Positions 27,081 to 36,934 of a DNA stretch of 64,000 nt are shown piece by piece. Origin of the DNA: a virus. A model generated the notes under the pieces. That model saw only the letters and a list, made by a program, of their open reading frames with translations, searched no databases and had not been told where the DNA came from. Positions within the stretch are counted from its first letter, which is position 1. Every line of letters begins with the position of its first letter. Where the stretch lies: positions 168,693-232,692 of the IMG/VR virus record IMGVR_UViG_3300020471_000004. One strand, written 5' to 3'. Both the position numbers and the translations under genes were made by a program.

Positions 27081-29684
27081 TTAACCGTCCGGGCAGTTTA
27101 GAACTGCTTGTGCTTTGGTACGTGCTTCGTCTTCATCCGCAGCCTGCACTTGTACCTTATCGTTAGGATCCTTTGCGCACCATGCGTCATAAGTGTTAAG
27201 GACTGCCTCTGCAATACGGTCATTAAGTACGCTGTCCTCACCTGTAGTGTAACTGCTAAAGGTTTCAAAACTAGCTTGTGTGACAGCAGAAGGTGCTGTG
27301 GTTAAGATACCATTAAATCCGTCTTCTGCAACTGCCGTGTTATTTGGGTTTCCGCTATTTCTAGAGTCTTCCGCAGCATCTATGCTAGACTGAGGTAACA
27401 GCCTCACTACTGTAATTTTTAGCTCTTCTATATGGGAAGGCAGTGTGCCTATTGTAGAAGACCAAGTACTTCCCTCTTGTGCTACTACAGCGGTAGCGGC
27501 AGGAGTAGCTGCATACTGAGTGCCTGTTACATTACCGTGCGATTCTATAAGCGGATGATTATCGCTGGCACTATTGTATCCAATCAAATTGGGAGCGCCT
27601 GTTCCGTAACCGTCTTCTGCATCTGTTACAAACAAGATACTCACTTTCTTTTGAGCAGTAGGTAAGTTGTCTAATACCCATCTAACATAAGAAGTAAAGA
27701 ACGTAACAGATGCACCTGCTGAACCTACAACGTTTGAACTAGGAATCAAAAAGTCATTAAGAATCTGTACAGCAATATTATCCCTAGTTGCTGATATGTC
27801 GCCATTCAGATTCATATTTTGTCCTAACATAGATCCGCTGATGTCCCGATAAATATACACCTGGAAACTTTCACCTTCAGACGCCAAAGATACTTGAGTA
27901 TCGTTAGGTGAATCGTCAACTATAGTACCGGTACCAGTACTTCTGGTGATGGTACCTATGCTCGGATTTGAAATGGTGACCGTAAACGTTTCGTTGTGTT
28001 CGGGAATATCATCGCACTTGATTGTTATATCAATATCTTTGGACGTGTCGCCTTCTTCAAAAGTTAACGTTCCCGAAGCATTGACATAATCTGATCCAGC
28101 GTCTGCGCTACCTGCATTTGCTGACCAGTCTACAGTGCGAGCGTCACCAACAACCGCTTCATTTGCAGATACGGTGAACCTAGCTGTGGTATCTTGCATA
28201 GATCCTGTACACTCTGGAACGCTAACATCGTTTATACGAAATTCTGTAGTGTTGTTTACCATCAAACAAGGCAGCTCGAAAGTTAATGTTGCGGTGTCGG
28301 TATCTTGAACGCCTGCTTCTTGGTAATCGTTGTCGCTGACTGTAACCGAAATGTCGTACTGTTTAACGGCACGATCATCGTCTTCACCCATAGTATGACG
28401 TAGTTGGAAAATCCCTATTCTTCCATCTGCTTCGGTACCTTTTAGTTTTAAACTACGGTCAGTAGACTTCCAAGCGTAGCTATATTTCCGAAGTTCCCAA
28501 TCAGGCGGGTCTATGAAGTTTACTTCTACTCTAGCTTCTGCGCTAAAAGTTTCTCCTAATGCTAAACACCTATCTTCGCAAGGCACAAGCGGGTCTGGCT
28601 CAGGTTCTGGCTCAGGTTCTGGTTCTGGTTCTGGTTCAGGATCAGGCTCAACATACTCGTACATCTTAGGGCGTTGGTATATCTGTATGCCGTCACCGTT
28701 TTTGAAATCTAGTGTCCAGAAACTTGAAGTAGGCAATCCGTATATGGCAAACCAGTGGTCTCTACCTCCTGTAACTGCAAATCCTCTATCCCTACCTTGG
28801 CTATCTGAGTATTGAAGTAAGTCTACGTCCAAGAAAGCTTGTCCTTGAATACACAGCTCATCGCTACCTTTGTGGTCAAGGGTCGCAAACATATATTCCT
28901 CTTCGGGAGGCATAATCGCCTTGGATATGTTCGTCTTGGCTTTAACCATTGACGAAAACTTACTTACAGTAGTAAAGGTATTATAGAACCCTTTATTAGG
29001 GTCTTCCTCTATCCTTCTACGATAGATTTTATGCATTTGATGGCTACGAGGCCCTTTGAATGTAGTAGAAGTATTTACACCTGTACCACTTAATCTGAAC
29101 CAGTTATCCCAACCAGGCATACCGCTGTAAAATACCATGCGGCTATGGATTTTACTTGAGAACCTGTATGGATCTGCATGGTTTAAGAAAGGCACAGCAC
29201 TGTACCATTTCTCAGAGCTGGAGTCATCATTCTGTACTACAAAAAGGTATTCATAGCCTGTTTCAAAGTTCAGCGTAAGGGATCTGCCTTTCGTAGTGTT
29301 CCATTCTTGAAACGCATAGGTGTCATCGTTAGGATCTAATGACCAATTGTTCGGATCAGGACTTAGCTCTCTTTCACGTATACTCAAGATATAACAAGCA
29401 CTAGAGCTAGACCTAACTATCTCTAGTTTCTTGTAACCGTATTGGGTAACAGTTGCTGCCATAACTTGGTCAAGCCCTGTCGCTCGCCACCCTATAGTAC
29501 CTGAAGTAGGCTGACCTATATCCATATCAGGAATCTTAATGACTCCGTGACCTACTTCATCGTCTTTTCGGGCTTCAACTACGTGAACCATATACTCTCT
29601 ATTTGGTTGCCAGTCATGCCCGAACCAAGTTCTTTTTGAACCGGAGTGCCGGTATATTTCATTCCATGGATTTATCTGTGCCAT
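27081..29684 (-). CDS. Large adhesin with Calx-beta and von Willebrand A-like domains
   Basis: An 867-residue protein. The N-terminal 330 residues are strand-rich and Trp/Tyr-rich. A Pro-Glu repeat hinge follows (about 347-366), then a PKD/Ig-like region (YSYAWKSTDRS), a Calx-beta domain (about 490-595, with FTVSANEAV, GTLTFEEGD and GTGTIVDD), and a von Willebrand A-like domain. The last begins VYIYRDISGSM, giving the MIDAS motif D-x-S-x-S at about 613-617, with a second phrase FVTDAEDGY at about 680. In other proteins these domains bind metal-dependent ligands. Located among fibre genes, it is inferred to be a virion adhesin. Confidence 0.75.
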   Translation of the reverse strand: MAQINPWNEIYRHSGSKRTWFGHDWQPNREYMVHVVEARKDDEVGHGVIKIPDMDIGQPTSGTIGWRATGLDQVMAATVTQYGYKKLEIVRSSSSACYILSIRERELSPDPNNWSLDPNDDTYAFQEWNTTKGRSLTLNFETGYEYLFVVQNDDSSSEKWYSAVPFLNHADPYRFSSKIHSRMVFYSGMPGWDNWFRLSGTGVNTSTTFKGPRSHQMHKIYRRRIEEDPNKGFYNTFTTVSKFSSMVKAKTNISKAIMPPEEEYMFATLDHKGSDELCIQGQAFLDVDLLQYSDSQGRDRGFAVTGGRDHWFAIYGLPTSSFWTLDFKNGDGIQIYQRPKMYEYVEPDPEPEPEPEPEPEPEPDPLVPCEDRCLALGETFSAEARVEVNFIDPPDWELRKYSYAWKSTDRSLKLKGTEADGRIGIFQLRHTMGEDDDRAVKQYDISVTVSDNDYQEAGVQDTDTATLTFELPCLMVNNTTEFRINDVSVPECTGSMQDTTARFTVSANEAVVGDARTVDWSANAGSADAGSDYVNASGTLTFEEGDTSKDIDITIKCDDIPEHNETFTVTISNPSIGTITRSTGTGTIVDDSPNDTQVSLASEGESFQVYIYRDISGSMLGQNMNLNGDISATRDNIAVQILNDFLIPSSNVVGSAGASVTFFTSYVRWVLDNLPTAQKKVSILFVTDAEDGYGTGAPNLIGYNSASDNHPLIESHGNVTGTQYAATPAATAVVAQEGSTWSSTIGTLPSHIEELKITVVRLLPQSSIDAAEDSRNSGNPNNTAVAEDGFNGILTTAPSAVTQASFETFSSYTTGEDSVLNDRIAEAVLNTYDAWCAKDPNDKVQVQAADEDEARTKAQAVLNCPDG
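28591..28650 (-). repeat. Pro-Glu dipeptide repeat in the 867-residue adhesin
   Basis: About ten tandem six-base units encode alternating Pro and Glu in a rigid extended hinge between the N-terminal domain and the Ig-like/Calx-beta part. Tandem six-base repeats of this kind can change length by slippage, altering hinge length without breaking the frame. Confidence 0.8.
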
Positions 29685-29687
29685 GTT

Positions 29688-32600
29688 TTAGTTTTTCCTA
29701 TAAAAGCTATCGGTGTTATGTATTAATATAGGATTCTTACCTACATAGTAGCTGTCGTTTTCTTCTATATCTATTATAACAACGTCAATAGGATCTTTAA
29801 CACGTTCAAGAGTTCCTACGTACACTTCACGACCTTGCATATTCCACAAGTAGTCACCGATTTGAATATCTCTTACATCCATCCAATGCCAAGTGTCTTT
29901 ACGCTTTACAAAGATCTCATGCTCTTGTGTTATCTCTACATCGCCGTTTATGACCCAGTACTCTCTGAACCAATCGTGTTTAATACTTGTAACAGTACTG
30001 ATTACCTGACGGTTGCCTTCGGTGCTGGTTGTAGTCCATTCTTGCCAACCAGGAGTATTTTCGTCTATCATACCTGGGAACCAAGTAGATACAACTCTAT
30101 CTCCTACGCGAAGACGCTCTGCGTTGATAGTAGAACCGTCTTCTAGATGGACTAGTGTGCCGAAAGATACGCAGCCTCCACCGCCACCTCCAGAGTATAC
30201 CTGTGCTTTCTGCTGGATAGATACGGGTATAGGGGCACTCTTTTGTACTCCGCCTAAATCGTCTTTGACAAATATCTCTACTTCAAGGCTTGCTGTACCT
30301 GCAAGAGACGAATTGGATACTTCACGCTCGAACTGAATACTTAGGTTCAAGTTGTCAGGACTATAGACGTTATAATTAGATGACCTAGGGTCAGGTTCGT
30401 TATTTACATCGAATGCACAAAAGTTTTTGGTGCTTATTCTAGAACCAGGTATTGTGTTGTTGACAACCGTAACGTTCCACTTGTAGGTATATGTACGATT
30501 AGGGTCAAACTCAAACTGAGCAAGTAAGTTAGTAGAGTGTGCTACACCTGCTGCTTTATCATCGACACCAACCGTAGCGCTATCGGCAGTTTTACGCATA
30601 GTGAATACACTAACGTCACCGGGGCTTTCGGTATACGCGGGAGTACCTTCTCCTAGATCACCGTCTGTGGGCCAAGTCATCTCTAACTTGCTTGCATTTA
30701 TTCTAAACGCCAATATAGTTTCAGGGTGCGCGTACTTTGTAGCAGTCACCTTAGCAGTACCAATACTGGTTATAGCAGAAGTATAAACTATATTCATGTC
30801 ACCGCTAGTAGGAGCGCTAGACTCTACTATTGTTGCGATACCTTCACTGTCTAAAATTTCTCCAGCACTAGGATTAGATATAATAACCTTGAACTGCTCG
30901 TTCGGATCCTTGATGCTGTCTGAATATGTGTTAACGCTTATTGTTCCACTACCTGCACCTGCTGGTATTATTAACGTACCTGATTTAGCTTGGTAGTCTG
31001 CTTCGGTAGTAGGTATGCCTACGTTACCATCGCTGACTGTTTTAACTACCAGATTTGTCATACGAGCCGCATTTGACTGAACAGGGAGTCTAGAGTTAGC
31101 AGTATTCATTCCTGCAAATAAATAACTATCTCCTGCTTTATCAATAATAGCCTGAACACTAATACTATCAATGTTGCTTATACCTGAAACATTTGAAGTT
31201 TCGTTTACTATATTAACAACTGCCTTTAAACCAAACGCATTGATTAGGTCTTTGGCGTTAGCATTCATGTATTTGTATGGACTGCTGTACGTTTTGGTAT
31301 CTAGTGCTGCGGTCTGTACCACAACTACAGGTTCGTTGGACTTTTGTGCTGCCCTAGAAACTGCAATTGCCCAAGCAGTCGCCTGCTCTTTACCAAATAC
31401 TTTGGTACTAAAATCAGTAGCACTTGAAATATCAGAGTTTTCAGCCGCGTGTTGTCTCCACTCTCCCCACTGGTCAATGATAACAATATCGTATCGGTCA
31501 ACAATATCTTTAGGCGTGCTATAAGTACTTGACCCTGTTGTAAAGCCGTTATCTCTAGTTTCACCGTGGTCGCCAAAGTTATTTACAAAGTGAACGTCTA
31601 CTTGAATACCAAATATCTTATTCATGCTAGATACTAAGTGATCCATTCCTTTAGTAGCATGGTAAGCGACTTCATACTCTCTTTCATCTACTCTCGGATC
31701 AGGGTCATAAGGTGTTGCGTATTCAAGTATTCTTTGGTGAGATACAATAAGCATCTTGGTAGAACTTGAAAGTGTGCCTAATCTATTTTCGAAAATATTA
31801 GCAAGCATTTGGAAGTAAGGAGGTAACTCAGAGCGGTTGCTAACACTGTGATCAGTATTGCCTGAGTTATAGTTAGAGGCGTTGTAGTACCCTTGCATGT
31901 AATCAAAGTCATCTAGATCGTATAAACGACTAGGATCTGCCTCAAGAACAAGAGTATAGTTTTGGTTCTCGTCATCGTACACTACCGAACTCACAATCCC
32001 GTCTTGTCTAAACAAAGGATAAGGATTAGTAGAACCTGCAACATCACCTGCGGTACTCAGCGCTGTAATATCTTGTGTGGTGTAGTCAACACTTATGTCC
32101 TGGTCAGTAGGGTAGTTTAAGGCAACTGTGAACTTTGCAGTACTACCTTCGTTAACTCGGATAGAGTTAATGGCGATTTGAACATCAGGACACAACGGTA
32201 CTAACTGGTCATCTATTTCTATATTAAGAATAGGTACGTAACAGCCTACCCAATAAGTCCAGCTAGAATCAAGAGGGCTATCGATTCGGACACTAACGTC
32301 CTCTAAGTCATCAAAGTTAGAGGATTCTTTTAGTCTAAACCACTGTAAGAATGATGTGCCTCTACTTTTCTTGGCTGTTACAAGTTCACCGTTTTTATCA
32401 AACACACTTGCGGTATAGGTAAAATCGCCATAACCTGTTATCTTAATAGACGCAACACCGTCACCGTCAAGGGTATTCATTCGGTAATGGTCTTCGGTAC
32501 TGTAGTGACCTGCACTAGATATGCCAGCTTCTGGCATTTCACAAGGGAATCTGTTCTCTTTGTAGCCTGCTGTGTTAGGGTCGTAAAGCATATACTCCTG

Positions 32601-33797
32601 GCTAGACATATCTGCAAGGTATTCACGCTCTTGTGCCATCACTTTAACAACAATATCAGGAACAGGTGTAGCAAATCTCCAAGGGTCAAACACTATTCGG
32701 AGCAGTCCGTCGGTATTTTTGTTGCCCATTGTAGATGCAATACGTTCACCGCCGTGGTATACTTCTACCCAATCAGCATTTTCCCACGTTTCATAGTTAA
32801 GGTGTAGCACATACGGTCCCGCAGCCGGATTAACTAGACCTACTGTGTGTACGTATTCTTGCCACCACTGACCTTCTTTGAATCGGTCACTCATATAAGC
32901 CACACGGCTATGTGCAGGTGCAGGGAAAATACTGGTACCTACGTATTCCATGTTTCTTATTTGTGCTAGGTGTCTGTTGTTGCCAGGTTCAAATACAGGT
33001 AATGCCAGAACAGCTTTGGGCCCTACAACACTGTATTGCCAACGAGTCTTGTCTTCGCCTCTAACCCTGATCATTACGCGAGATTCACCAGCACCTATGT
33101 TAGGGTTAGCACCGAACTCTAGTTTACCTCTACCGAATACTCTGCCACAAGTAGAAGCAATCAAAGCTCCTAGGTAGTACACGTCAATAGAAATTCCAGT
33201 TTCAGCATAACTTGCGTAAAGTATTTCGAACTGACCTGCGGTATCTCCAGTTTCGTATATGGTTTCCGTTACCGCGCTGCCTGTGCTAAAGGTATGGGTA
33301 GACACAAAGCTAGGGTTTTCGTAGGTTCCCCTTCCGTAAAAAGAGTTGATACCTGAATTATCGTAGGTATCTTTTAGATTGTCTATACCCGGTCTATTGA
33401 TAACTTTACCTTCGTATGTACCAAAAGACTTTTCTAAACCAAAGCCTACTTGTCCTGCATCTGGTAAGTCGTAACCTGCAGGATACCCTTCAAGTATATC
33501 AAATTCTGCACCGCCTGAACCTAGACCGTTACCTGAGCCTGCATCTGTTATACTTACTGTATCGGGACAAGCTATTGAATTAAGCTGGGCTAAGTTGGCA
33601 CAGGGATCGTCAAGTGCAGGATCAAACGTACAATCTACGTCTAACCACTTGCTATTGCCAGAGTCCCTTACTTTTGTTTGAGCTGGATAAAACCTTACCC
33701 AGCTGGCATTAAAAGCATCCCGAAAATAGAATTCACTATTACATTGGTCTAACCATTGGTTATTCAAGATGTTTCTTACTGTTACGCGAACACTCAT
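29688..33797 (-). CDS. Giant adhesin with interrupted Calx-beta domain and C-terminal Hint domain
   Basis: A 1369-residue protein. Residues 1-530 are strand-rich, with repeated short N-terminal Trp motifs. A Calx-beta domain starts at about 539 (IRVNEGSTAKFTV) and is broken by about 340 residues of an alpha/beta domain (SSSTKMLIVSHQ, DIVIIDQWG, PVVVVQTAAL); the rest of the Calx-beta fold resumes at about 926 (ADYQAKSGTLIIPAG). An Ig-like part leads to six Gly and then a Hint domain: Cys1209, GTLVHLEDGS, the block-B motif TQEH, and ILIHN with N1361, followed by T1362 and seven residues. All elements needed for intein-type cleavage or splicing are present. Likely a self-processing virion adhesin. 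Confidence 0.8.
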   Translation of the reverse strand: MSVRVTVRNILNNQWLDQCNSEFYFRDAFNASWVRFYPAQTKVRDSGNSKWLDVDCTFDPALDDPCANLAQLNSIACPDTVSITDAGSGNGLGSGGAEFDILEGYPAGYDLPDAGQVGFGLEKSFGTYEGKVINRPGIDNLKDTYDNSGINSFYGRGTYENPSFVSTHTFSTGSAVTETIYETGDTAGQFEILYASYAETGISIDVYYLGALIASTCGRVFGRGKLEFGANPNIGAGESRVMIRVRGEDKTRWQYSVVGPKAVLALPVFEPGNNRHLAQIRNMEYVGTSIFPAPAHSRVAYMSDRFKEGQWWQEYVHTVGLVNPAAGPYVLHLNYETWENADWVEVYHGGERIASTMGNKNTDGLLRIVFDPWRFATPVPDIVVKVMAQEREYLADMSSQEYMLYDPNTAGYKENRFPCEMPEAGISSAGHYSTEDHYRMNTLDGDGVASIKITGYGDFTYTASVFDKNGELVTAKKSRGTSFLQWFRLKESSNFDDLEDVSVRIDSPLDSSWTYWVGCYVPILNIEIDDQLVPLCPDVQIAINSIRVNEGSTAKFTVALNYPTDQDISVDYTTQDITALSTAGDVAGSTNPYPLFRQDGIVSSVVYDDENQNYTLVLEADPSRLYDLDDFDYMQGYYNASNYNSGNTDHSVSNRSELPPYFQMLANIFENRLGTLSSSTKMLIVSHQRILEYATPYDPDPRVDEREYEVAYHATKGMDHLVSSMNKIFGIQVDVHFVNNFGDHGETRDNGFTTGSSTYSTPKDIVDRYDIVIIDQWGEWRQHAAENSDISSATDFSTKVFGKEQATAWAIAVSRAAQKSNEPVVVVQTAALDTKTYSSPYKYMNANAKDLINAFGLKAVVNIVNETSNVSGISNIDSISVQAIIDKAGDSYLFAGMNTANSRLPVQSNAARMTNLVVKTVSDGNVGIPTTEADYQAKSGTLIIPAGAGSGTISVNTYSDSIKDPNEQFKVIISNPSAGEILDSEGIATIVESSAPTSGDMNIVYTSAITSIGTAKVTATKYAHPETILAFRINASKLEMTWPTDGDLGEGTPAYTESPGDVSVFTMRKTADSATVGVDDKAAGVAHSTNLLAQFEFDPNRTYTYKWNVTVVNNTIPGSRISTKNFCAFDVNNEPDPRSSNYNVYSPDNLNLSIQFEREVSNSSLAGTASLEVEIFVKDDLGGVQKSAPIPVSIQQKAQVYSGGGGGGCVSFGTLVHLEDGSTINAERLRVGDRVVSTWFPGMIDENTPGWQEWTTTSTEGNRQVISTVTSIKHDWFREYWVINGDVEITQEHEIFVKRKDTWHWMDVRDIQIGDYLWNMQGREVYVGTLERVKDPIDVVIIDIEENDSYYVGKNPILIHNTDSFYRKN

Positions 33798-33806
33798 TAG
33801 AATACC

Positions 33807-34301
33807 TTAACTAGGTTTAATCCATAGCGCACCTGAGCCTACAGGGCCTGGGTCTTCGTTATTTATATAGATAGCAACTTTGCCGTCTAGTCCAGATATA
33901 CCTTGAGGACCTGTAGGTCCCATAGGGCCTTGTTCTCCTTGCTTACCTTCAGGTCCTCTGACTCCTCGTTCACCTACTGGACCTCTCGGACCTCTACAGC
34001 CGCGTTCACCTTGTGTGCCGCTTTCACCTATGATACCGTCTGTACCTGACGTGCCTGATACACCCTGAGGTCCTTCTTTGCCTGTACCTACATCGCTTTG
34101 TGTCATAAAGTTAGATATAGTAAGTACAGGGTAACCAGGTATGCTAAGTGTTAAAGTACCACTTATGTTATCGAATGTTCCTGAAAGTTCGGTTGCTTGT
34201 GTTTCTTCGGTAGTTACCACAAGCCCTTTGCCTGTGTTAGACACGTTGCCTGAGCTACTTCCACCATCAATCATGTTTAAAAAAGGTTTAACGATACTCA
34301 T
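33807..34301 (-). CDS. Short collagen-like fibre
   Basis: A 164-residue protein: shared N-terminal domain (about 1-73, ending ISNFMTQ), Gly-X-Y repeats at about 74-140 with a Cys at 102 (GCRGPRG), and a short end, IYINNEDPG...GALWIKPS, like the end of the 212-residue neighbour. No large tip domain, so it may be a spacer, a decoy or an accessory fibre. Confidence 0.85.
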   Translation of the reverse strand: MSIVKPFLNMIDGGSSSGNVSNTGKGLVVTTEETQATELSGTFDNISGTLTLSIPGYPVLTISNFMTQSDVGTGKEGPQGVSGTSGTDGIIGESGTQGERGCRGPRGPVGERGVRGPEGKQGEQGPMGPTGPQGISGLDGKVAIYINNEDPGPVGSGALWIKPS

Positions 34302-34309
34302 ACTCTACC

Positions 34310-34948
34310 TCATACGAATTGATCTGTGTCATCTTCATATTGACCTATTGCAGGGTTAACCCATATAGCACCTGGGCCTATTCCAGAACCAGGATCAGTT
34401 TCAGATATGACAATATTAATATTTCCAGCTGGGCCTTGAGGACCAATAGGGCCAGTAGGGCCTGTATCTCCAGTCGGGCCTGTAGGTCCTGTTTCACCTT
34501 TGGGACCTTGCTCTCCTTGAGGACCTCTTTCTCCCATAGGTCCTGCACATCCTGCAGGGCCCGGAGGGCCTACTTGTCCTGGTCTACCGTTTTGACCGTC
34601 TTCACCTTTAGGGCCTGTAGGTCCGATAGGGCCTGCGCACCCTTCGTCTCCTACTTCACCGTCACGACCGTCACGACCATCTTGTCCGTCTTCACCTGGG
34701 TCACCTTGTGGTCCTTGCTGCCCTTCTGGTATACTATCAAATGTAGGAAATCCTGAAATAACAACTTCTTGACCATTAGCGAAACTTAAGGTAAGTACTC
34801 CGCTACCTATGTCATACGAGCCGCCTTCGATTTCACTTACATTTGAGGACACTTCGCTAGAAGTAGCAAGCTTACCTGATTCTACTACTACGGTATTCCC
34901 GTTAGAACCGGCTGCTTTTACCATGTTTAGTGAGGGTTTAGTTAACAT
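34310..34948 (-). CDS. Collagen-like fibre
   Basis: A 212-residue paralogue of the previous protein: N-terminal domain to about 75, collagen repeats at about 76-175 with Cys at 104 (GCAGPIG) and 134, then VISETDPG...GAIWVNP and a short acidic tail. Close tandem placement and shared ends indicate duplication. Likely trimeric. Confidence 0.85.
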   Translation of the reverse strand: MLTKPSLNMVKAAGSNGNTVVVESGKLATSSEVSSNVSEIEGGSYDIGSGVLTLSFANGQEVVISGFPTFDSIPEGQQGPQGDPGEDGQDGRDGRDGEVGDEGCAGPIGPTGPKGEDGQNGRPGQVGPPGPAGCAGPMGERGPQGEQGPKGETGPTGPTGDTGPTGPIGPQGPAGNINIVISETDPGSGIGPGAIWVNPAIGQYEDDTDQFV

Positions 34949-34955
34949 ATTTTCC

Positions 34956-35417
34956 TCAGCTTATCTTGTTATGTACAAGTACGTTGTTCAAAAAGAACGT
35001 GTCGTACAGGTCAACTGTTACTTCGTAAGTCTGACAATTAGCTTCTATAAAAAGGTTAGACTCGACTTGTATTACCGAGTCTTTGCCGAATAGTTTATCC
35101 CCAGTCACTATTTGATGCGGAAACTTCCACTGCCAGTACCCAGCTCTTTGAGTAAGGATAGGTTGGTCTTTTACAAAGTGCATAGTATTAATTTTGTAGT
35201 AGCCTGTTCTGATAAACGTTTCTTTTAAAACAACTTCAACGTCTACTACTTTACCAGCGATATTACGTGTTGCCCAATCTATCGCAAATTCTTCGTTTCC
35301 GAATCGAGAGCTTGGCATAGCACTGATACGCAAACCTGTTATTTTGTCACCCACAGATATGTCAATGGCATTTCGGGGATGAAAGTCGGAACCTATATAA
35401 GCTATTTGCTTTATCAT
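34956..35417 (-). CDS. Free-standing degenerate Hint-like protein
   Basis: A 153-residue protein that resembles the Hint domains ending its neighbours: GDKITGLRISA corresponds to the early GD-V strand, YWQW matches their Trp phrase, VTGDKLFG the second GD turn, and it ends LVHN-KIS with His149-Asn150 near the C-terminus as in intein C-termini. It lacks the N-terminal Cys and the T-x-x-H motif (VKDQPIL instead), so N-terminal cleavage is not expected, though Asn-dependent C-terminal cleavage might be. It abuts the 505-residue Hint fibre gene. Homology is inferred from pattern. Confidence 0.65.
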   Translation of the reverse strand: MIKQIAYIGSDFHPRNAIDISVGDKITGLRISAMPSSRFGNEEFAIDWATRNIAGKVVDVEVVLKETFIRTGYYKINTMHFVKDQPILTQRAGYWQWKFPHQIVTGDKLFGKDSVIQVESNLFIEANCQTYEVTVDLYDTFFLNNVLVHNKIS

Positions 35418-36934
35418 TAGTATTTAACCGTTTGCGTTGTGTTATGAACAACTATAGGAGTCTGTCCTGCAAAATAGTTATCGTTAGGCTCTGCATCAAG
35501 AACAACTACGTTTACAGGACCTTCGTTGAATACAATGCTGCTGACTTCGACTTCTCTATCTACTCCCATAAGTAAATCACCTTCTTTCAATTCAGATGCA
35601 TCTAACCATTGCCACTGTGTGCCTTGTTTGGCAAAAACAGGGTGCTTGTCGGTAATTACTACATCGTTGTTGATAGTCCAAGATTTTGAATAAGATGCCT
35701 TAAATGCTACTTTAATTCGAGTAGCTGCGACCTTTCCGTTTTTAAGTTCAGTAGTTTTCCAATCTTGCCAACCTTGTTCTGATTCATCTAACAGACCGTC
35801 ACAAGTATAGCTTTGAACCGAATCTCCTACTCTAACGTATTTGGCTTTTTTGGTAGTACCGTCCCACATAAGAACAGGAGTGTCTTCGTGCAAGCAACCA
35901 CCTCCGCCTACTACAACACCTCCGCCGCCTCCGCCTACAGGGCCTGTATCGACTCTTCGGTTAAAGCCTGAAAACGAAAATATAATATTATCTATTACTT
36001 TACGTTCAGTACTGTTCTTATCAGTGATTGTTACTTTCATTTTGCCTTTGTATTCGTAAGTATCTTGAGGCGCAATGGTTCGCAACATACTCAAACGAAT
36101 AGAGTTTGCGGTTGTTTGGCTTTCTACTACCAGACCAGGTACATCCCAGCTTCCATCGATAGGTTCCCATTTGTATGTAAAGGGCCCGACACCGCCACTC
36201 AGGTTTCTAACAACCAGTGTAGCAATACCGCTAAAAGAATCGTTTACCATTTCGGCAAGTTCGATATGTTGATTGTTAACACTAGCTGTAAGTTCTTCGA
36301 TTTCTTGCTCTTCAGGAACGTCTACAGCGACACCTGCAGGAGCAGCCCACAAAAAGAAACTTGAGTCAGGAGTAGAAGTGCCGTAATACACAGACTCTTT
36401 AGGAGTTTCACCTGTAGGCCCTTGAGGTCCTACAATACAGCTAGGTCCTTGCGGGCCCATAGGCCCTTGGTCTCCGACTTGACCTCGTATGCCTGTATCA
36501 CCACGAGGTCCTACTCCTCCCGGGCATCCATACTTACCTATGACACCTATCTTTCCGTCTTCGCCTTCTAGTCCTGCTATACCTTGTTCACCTGTAGGCC
36601 CTATAGGTCCTTCACATCCAGTTTTACCTTTCTTACCGTCACGACCTACTCTTCCGTTCTTGCCGTTACGACCTCGAGGGCCTTTTATTCCCCGAGGTCC
36701 CTCACCAAAGAAAGTCTGAGTCATGAAGCCTGATATAGAAACTATTTCACCGTTAGCTCTAACAAGGTTAAGCGAGCCTAGCTTTTTATTAAAGCCTACT
36801 TGAACCACAAGCCTTTTGCTGATAGGTTCTTCTGCACTATACTCGATAGAGCGGTTTATTTCGTTTGCTTTTAAGCTTGTGCCTTCTTGATTTGCATTGG
36901 GTACAAAGCTTTTGATACTAGCTTCTTGTGCCAT
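35417..36934 (-). CDS. Collagen-like fibre with PKD-like and C-terminal Hint domains
   Basis: A 505-residue fibre. Order: shared N-terminal domain (1-76); collagen repeats (77-176) with Cys at 107, 137 and 166; a short WAAP-type end; a PKD/Ig-like domain (about 215-320, FTYKWEPIDGSW); a Gly-rich hinge; and a Hint domain from Cys347 (CLHEDTPVLMWDGT) through TDKH (block B) to VVHN, with H497, N498 and then T499. The complete Cys/T-x-x-H/HN set predicts protein self-cleavage or splicing. It has the same hinge and extein length (about 7-8 residues) as the giant adhesin, so both probably undergo the same processing. Confidence 0.85.
   Translation of the reverse strand: MAQEASIKSFVPNANQEGTSLKANEINRSIEYSAEEPISKRLVVQVGFNKKLGSLNLVRANGEIVSISGFMTQTFFGEGPRGIKGPRGRNGKNGRVGRDGKKGKTGCEGPIGPTGEQGIAGLEGEDGKIGVIGKYGCPGGVGPRGDTGIRGQVGDQGPMGPQGPSCIVGPQGPTGETPKESVYYGTSTPDSSFFLWAAPAGVAVDVPEEQEIEELTASVNNQHIELAEMVNDSFSGIATLVVRNLSGGVGPFTYKWEPIDGSWDVPGLVVESQTTANSIRLSMLRTIAPQDTYEYKGKMKVTITDKNSTERKVIDNIIFSFSGFNRRVDTGPVGGGGGGVVVGGGGCLHEDTPVLMWDGTTKKAKYVRVGDSVQSYTCDGLLDESEQGWQDWKTTELKNGKVAATRIKVAFKASYSKSWTINNDVVITDKHPVFAKQGTQWQWLDASELKEGDLLMGVDREVEVSSIVFNEGPVNVVVLDAEPNDNYFAGQTPIVVHNTTQTVKY

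Follow-up and report, generated by a model that had tools for sequence, protein, structure and literature searches.

Autoprocessing by HINT domains has been studied in detail in inteins, hedgehog proteins and bacterial surface proteins. BIL domains lack a +1 nucleophile and yield mostly cleavage products, and type A BIL domains keep the terminal His-Asn pair and can splice to some extent (PMC4031507, PMC7664689); the roles of the HINT catalytic residues have also been described (PMC4031507). In phages, self-removal of an end domain is known from tail fibres and tail spikes, whose S74 autopeptidase uses Ser/Lys chemistry (PMC7824862). Phage NCTB, one of a group of jumbo myophages (PMC7412058), carries three genes (BN7874_132, _135 and _136; LT598654) that are already annotated as intein domain proteins, so the recognition of these domains is not new. 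No description of the function of the three NCTB proteins was found in searchable papers, and the openly licensed literature yielded no paper that treats Hint domains at the C-terminus as something conserved among phage fibres.

The stretch of DNA analysed here (the window; 64,000 nucleotides) comes from a phage contig of 232,692 bases that is related to Phage NCTB, and the source of the Hint-ended fibres is a giant bacterial virus. Orthologs of the three NCTB genes are found in the window in the same order. What is new, as far as could be checked, is the conserved catalytic set combined with a variable +1 residue, a tail that doubles as a putative ribosome-binding site, and an ortholog without the Hint.

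Organization of the Hint-ended fibre genes

The adhesin consists, from N- to C-terminus, of a shared N-terminal region (phrog_26008) common to about 60 related phage records, Calx-beta, a PKD/Ig-like region, the Gly6 hinge and the Hint domain (Table 1). The collagen fibre contains a fibre N-terminal region, collagen repeats, a PKD/Ig-like domain, a Gly-rich hinge beginning at residue 334, and the Hint domain. The Gly-rich hinge, Cys, TxxH motif and HN-Thr with a short tail that had been proposed for both proteins were located, the domains spanning residues 1209–1361 and 347–498, respectively.

Table 1. Features of the fibre gene cluster, with positions in the window.
Feature	Position	Strand	Basis
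Adhesin, 1369 aa	29688-33797	-	ORF list and domain matches
Adhesin C-terminal tail TDSFYRKN; codons include AGGAA	29691-29714	-	
Hint domain A (adhesin): Cys1209, T1290/H1293 (TxxH), H1360-N1361	29715-30173	-	
Gly6 hinge, adhesin residues 1203-1208, directly ahead of Cys1209	30174-30191	-	
Stand-alone degenerate Hint-like protein, 153 aa, terminal HN-KIS	34956-35417	-	
Collagen fibre, 505 aa	35417-36934	-	ORF list and domain matches
Collagen fibre C-terminal tail TTQTVKY; next stop overlaps start of third Hint gene (TAATG)	35420-35440	-	
Hint domain B (collagen fibre): Cys347, T428/H431, H497-N498	35441-35896	-	

An insert of some 350 residues apparently interrupts Calx-beta of the adhesin, and the Pfam match covers the second half of this domain only (931–981). 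The adjoining 867-aa protein (27081-29684) contains Calx-beta followed by DISGS, which, judged by eye only, resembles a vWA MIDAS. The annotated start of the NCTB adhesin BN7874_132 (L001 17983-22128) is an internal TTG; its open frame runs about 230 bases further upstream and there matches the N-terminus of the window adhesin.

Assignment to the HINT superfamily

A test profile was built from five Hint domains of Erwinia, Yersinia and Alcaligenes phages, none of them from the window; one of the five is nearly identical in Dickeya phage AD1. Among the 237 window ORFs, it matched the adhesin, the collagen fibre and the 153-aa protein (E 1.9e-25, 5.6e-18 and 1.8e-17) and none of the other 234, nor did it match reversed sequences. 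A search of the whole contig gave no Hint matches beyond the same three ORFs. The match of these ORFs is well above chance. PT-HINT (PF07591) is the best curated profile for the relatives, with matches to 10 of 13 members; the three window proteins score 16.6, 17.2 and 15.6 bits with it, and the adhesin Hint stretch by itself 23.4 bits, all below the cut-off of 27.7. With TIGR01443 the collagen fibre reaches 14.3 against a threshold of 15.6. The Hint assignment of the original prediction is borne out for all three ORFs by the relatives-only profile, while both curated profiles stay sub-threshold.

A ten-domain profile was found to match the BIL domain 2lwy (E 6e-13), Tetrahymena BIL2 and the gp41-1 intein. 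AlphaFold2 modelled the adhesin Hint with a pLDDT of 87.3 and a pTM of 0.83, confidence being low at the hinge and tail only, and the first Foldseek match of this model is again 2lwy (E 3e-9, TM 0.83 by target length), followed by BIL2, several inteins and hedgehog 1at0. Because of these profile and fold matches, and not because of PT-HINT, whose cut-off is missed, the C-terminal ends of the adhesin and the collagen fibre are classified, on sequence and predicted structure, as BIL-like members of the HINT superfamily. They combine the HINT fold with Cys1, TxxH, the block-F Asp and the block-G His-Asn.

Conservation of the catalytic residues

Thirteen domains from three phage lineages were aligned, including those of the phage contigs L036 and L038, whose host proteins are otherwise different; both contigs show the same order of linker, GC, Hint, HN and short tail. 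All 13 share Cys1, the Thr and His of TxxH, the block-F Asp and the terminal His-Asn without exception (alignment columns C14, T95, H98, D148, H165 and N166), with most domains 24–37% identical to the window domain. At the collagen-fibre loci, Cys1, the Gly at –1 and His-Asn are kept in 18 of 18, with synonymous sites near saturation, and pN/pS of the Hint (0.19) is similar to that of the rest of the fibre. Judged from these ratios, the Hint is under purifying selection, as is the rest of the collagen fibre.

Scanning viral contigs for the THEHP motif returned mostly the same phage group, plus intein-like insertions, and matches in a search of genome contigs were limited to distant archaeal BIL-like domains. 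In Nanoarchaeota/Woesearchaeota (L061, L063, L064 and L065), proteins that are Thr-rich or surface-like carry BIL-like domains whose His-Asn is followed by Gly, Ala or Lys.

Orthologs lacking the Hint domain

The Dickeya phages JA29, JA13, JA11 and JA33 possess the PKD-like domain of the fibre and gave no match in Hint searches. The collagen-fibre ortholog of JA29 has 324 residues and stops at '...VRITARNPK*'; at this position the Hint-bearing ortholog of SNUABM_33 reads '...LTVVARNPTSSTSG|CIVFGS'. The JA29 fibre ends just ahead of the Gly|Cys junction of its relatives and has neither Hint, Gly hinge nor tail, and a search of the rest of JA29 and of PaBG revealed no Hint elsewhere. Adhesin homologs without the Hint are found in SNUABM_33, SNUABM_5, fHe-Yen9-02 and PaBG. 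These orthologs indicate that the Hint is a detachable module, and since fibres work without it in the Dickeya JA phages and PaBG, it is not essential. Removal of the Hint would give a product close to the one that JA29 makes directly, as a "pre-cut" version of the fibre. The module occurs in cultured Erwinia, Dickeya and Yersinia phages and is hence directly testable, with the Hint-less Dickeya orthologs as a natural control.

Several annotations in this phage group are of separate interest. The label "putative large intein domain protein" is attached to KY448244.1 63128-64672 (Yoloswag) and L006 7619-8845 (Afa-NA1). The Afa-NA1 protein so labelled (408 aa) contains no Hint; in Yoloswag the label sits on a homolog of the adhesin N-terminal region, the name having probably been carried over from NCTB. 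Afa-NA1 (L006) and Sen-NF (L007), whose records are attributed to Alcaligenes and Salmonella hosts, respectively, have identical 476-aa fibre proteins, and the Afa-NA1 adhesin looks truncated; both records may deserve a check.

A proposed self-removing fibre end

The conserved catalytic set, together with a phage group that does without the Hint, points to self-trimming fibre ends. The adhesin and the collagen fibre would be precursors whose C-terminal HINT domain removes itself, with conservation of cleavage rather than splicing; we put the probability of this reading at about 0.6. Cys1 would convert the peptide bond between Gly and Cys into a thioester, assisted by TxxH and the block-F Asp, and hydrolysis of the thioester, or attack by some nucleophile, would free the fibre with a Gly-rich C-terminus. 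The His-Asn pair could also cut off the short tail. By analogy with the S74 chaperone domains, the Hint would most likely act at the C-terminus as a transient aid to folding or assembly and then be discarded.

Attachment of the fibre to another molecule, also offered in the original prediction, would follow if an outside nucleophile (Lys, a lipid or a sugar amine) attacked the Gly-Cys thioester in a hedgehog-like reaction, leaving the fibre C-terminus covalently linked to another fibre, the virion or the host surface. All of the N-side chemistry is conserved, a flexible hinge ending in Gly lends itself to such an attack, the fold matches include hedgehog 1at0, and hedgehog cholesterol transfer uses the N-S shift only (PMC7664689). 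However, neither an acceptor gene nor a sterol-binding region was found, such a reaction does not need the conserved His-Asn, and the JA29 fibre, having neither Hint nor Gly hinge, argues for plain removal. We therefore consider ligation unlikely.

The third copy and the history of the family

The degenerate third copy that had been noticed between the adhesin and the collagen fibre proved to be a separate gene, its ATG overlapping the stop codon of the collagen fibre gene. The protein lacks Cys1 and has VKDQ at the TxxH position, so that the block-B His is replaced by Gln; the terminal His-Asn is kept. Cys1 and the block-B His, which an active Hint would carry, are absent alike from the third copies of the window, NCTB and the phage contig L013, and the third copy is probably inactive at the N-side. 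Its model has a pLDDT of 64, a low confidence at which the fold matches, to inteins and BIL domains, support family membership only. It comes from the same family as the other two domains, has probably lost the N-side chemistry, and may bind its sister domains.

The same copy is an argument for a chemically inert Hint, a folded C-terminal knob that lends stability or serves binding: it keeps the family sequence but neither Cys1 nor the block-B His, and three phages retain it. The terminal Hint of L008 points the same way, having Cys1 and HN with Gln in place of the block-B His, so that some terminal Hints may be inactive. Against this reading, the full catalytic set is invariant across the 13 diverged domains of three lineages, and we regard an inactive adhesin or fibre Hint as quite unlikely.

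In the tree, a single group (95/96) holds the adhesin and fibre Hints of the window, NCTB and L013, the fibre Hints of these three phages form a clade of their own (100/100), and the third copies form another group (100/100) on a long branch. From this grouping, the duplication that gave the adhesin and fibre Hints is likely older than the split of the three phages. A mobile or decaying intein was rejected as an explanation, given the absence of a homing endonuclease, the terminal position and the presence of both paralogs in all three phages.

The +1 residue and the C-terminal tail

In splicing, the Hint would excise itself and join the Gly hinge to the tail of 7–8 residues. This is chemically possible in the window phage given the +1 Thr of both domains, and +1 Thr is found in 17 of the 18 collagen-fibre loci. 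Among the nearest orthologs, however, +1 of the adhesin is Thr in the window, Ala in NCTB and Val in L013, and that of the collagen fibre is Thr, Ala and Thr, respectively; elsewhere it is Val in fHe-Yen9-02, Met in Afa-NA1 and Sen-NF, and Lys, Val or Leu in distant relatives. A +1 Cys, Ser or Thr, conserved in inteins, is accordingly not kept across the orthologs of either protein, and since the residue varies among orthologs, conserved splicing is unlikely and cleavage is favoured. Of the claim that these ends allow cleavage or splicing, the Hint identity and the conserved residues on the N- and C-sides stand, whereas splicing as a conserved outcome is weakened by Ala, Val and Met at +1.

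The tail also argues against splicing: its sequence is not kept between NCTB and the window, and the Hint-less JA29 fibre has none. In the Erwinia/Dickeya group (17 sequences), the tail codons GCG GAG AAA (AEK) are identical or nearly identical even at synonymous sites, unlike the neighbouring Hint codons, most of which vary freely. The last 10 codons of the collagen-Hint genes of loci L004-L035 contain a near-invariant, Shine-Dalgarno-like GCGGAGAAA, at which synonymous variation falls almost to zero, so that conservation there is largely at the DNA level. GGAGA lies about 13 bases ahead of the end of the collagen-Hint gene, and the next fibre gene usually begins at an overlapping TAATG; in the window, the AGGAA of the adhesin tail codons is likewise Shine-Dalgarno-like and lies upstream of the ATG of the adjoining 867-aa protein gene. 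We read the tail codons as, at least partly, a putative ribosome-binding site of the next gene, which would account for at least part of the tail conservation with no need to invoke a function of the peptide. The tail earlier described as fixed is thus in part better seen as such a site, and the case for a functional tail peptide is weakened. Taken over both lines of evidence, splicing is distinctly improbable.

Intein-like insertions of another kind were seen in LR756508, an uncultured 484-kb phage: they lie inside its portal, polymerase and methylase genes, with Ser or Thr as the residue that follows. The portal-like protein (LR756508.1 142500-149500; L081) apparently has three, and further ones lie in the DNA polymerase and methylase (L082 and L083).

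Regulated covalent anchoring, in which the Gly-thioester would join the fibres to a virion or cell-surface molecule while the dead 153-aa copy, by binding to the active domains, sets the timing or course of the reaction, is very improbable.

Comparison with known systems

How do these domains relate to the described families? The type A BIL domain of Clostridium thermocellum (2lwy) is the best profile and fold match, sharing Cys1, TxxH, the block-F Asp and His-Asn; as there, the phage Hints have no homing endonuclease, and phage orthologs often lack a +1 nucleophile. They differ in lying at the very C-terminus of fibre proteins, followed by a tail of 2–16 residues, and in the +1 Thr of the window domains. 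Type A BIL domains are defined by His-Asn without a +1 nucleophile (PMC4031507): His-Asn is present throughout and the Ala, Val and Met orthologs fit this definition, but both window domains, with +1 Thr, do not and are filed as BIL-like only. Class 1 inteins share the fold and the splice-junction residues. The phage Hints have no functional C-extein, conserved +1 residue or homing endonuclease and are not found in a conserved enzyme; an intein is inserted in a host protein and its exteins are joined, whereas here 7–8 residues follow the domain and JA29 has no corresponding C-extein. The window proteins are also not filed under PT-HINT, since they score below its cut-off and have no toxin domain after the Hint.

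Hedgehog Hog/Hint (1at0) is likewise a C-terminal autoprocessing domain, and the phage Hints would similarly release the N-terminal part at Gly|Cys; unlike Hog, they keep His-Asn and have no identified sterol-recognition region, the proteins ending 7–8 residues past HN. The closest relatives, the NCTB proteins, differ from those of the window in having Ala at +1 in both active-type copies. As a separate lead only, phage Y3, described as a "hairy Myovirus" in the title of its report, carries a Hint fibre, which may hint at a link to tail whiskers. Self-processing of a phage fibre, termed unusual in the original prediction, is uncommon but has a precedent in the S74 intramolecular chaperone autopeptidase, also a self-removed domain at the fibre end. 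The likeness is a functional analogy only, as the chemistry of the phage Hints would be that of Cys, His and Asn of the HINT type. If active, they would add to the S74 autopeptidase a second route of fibre-end maturation in phages, one based on different chemistry.
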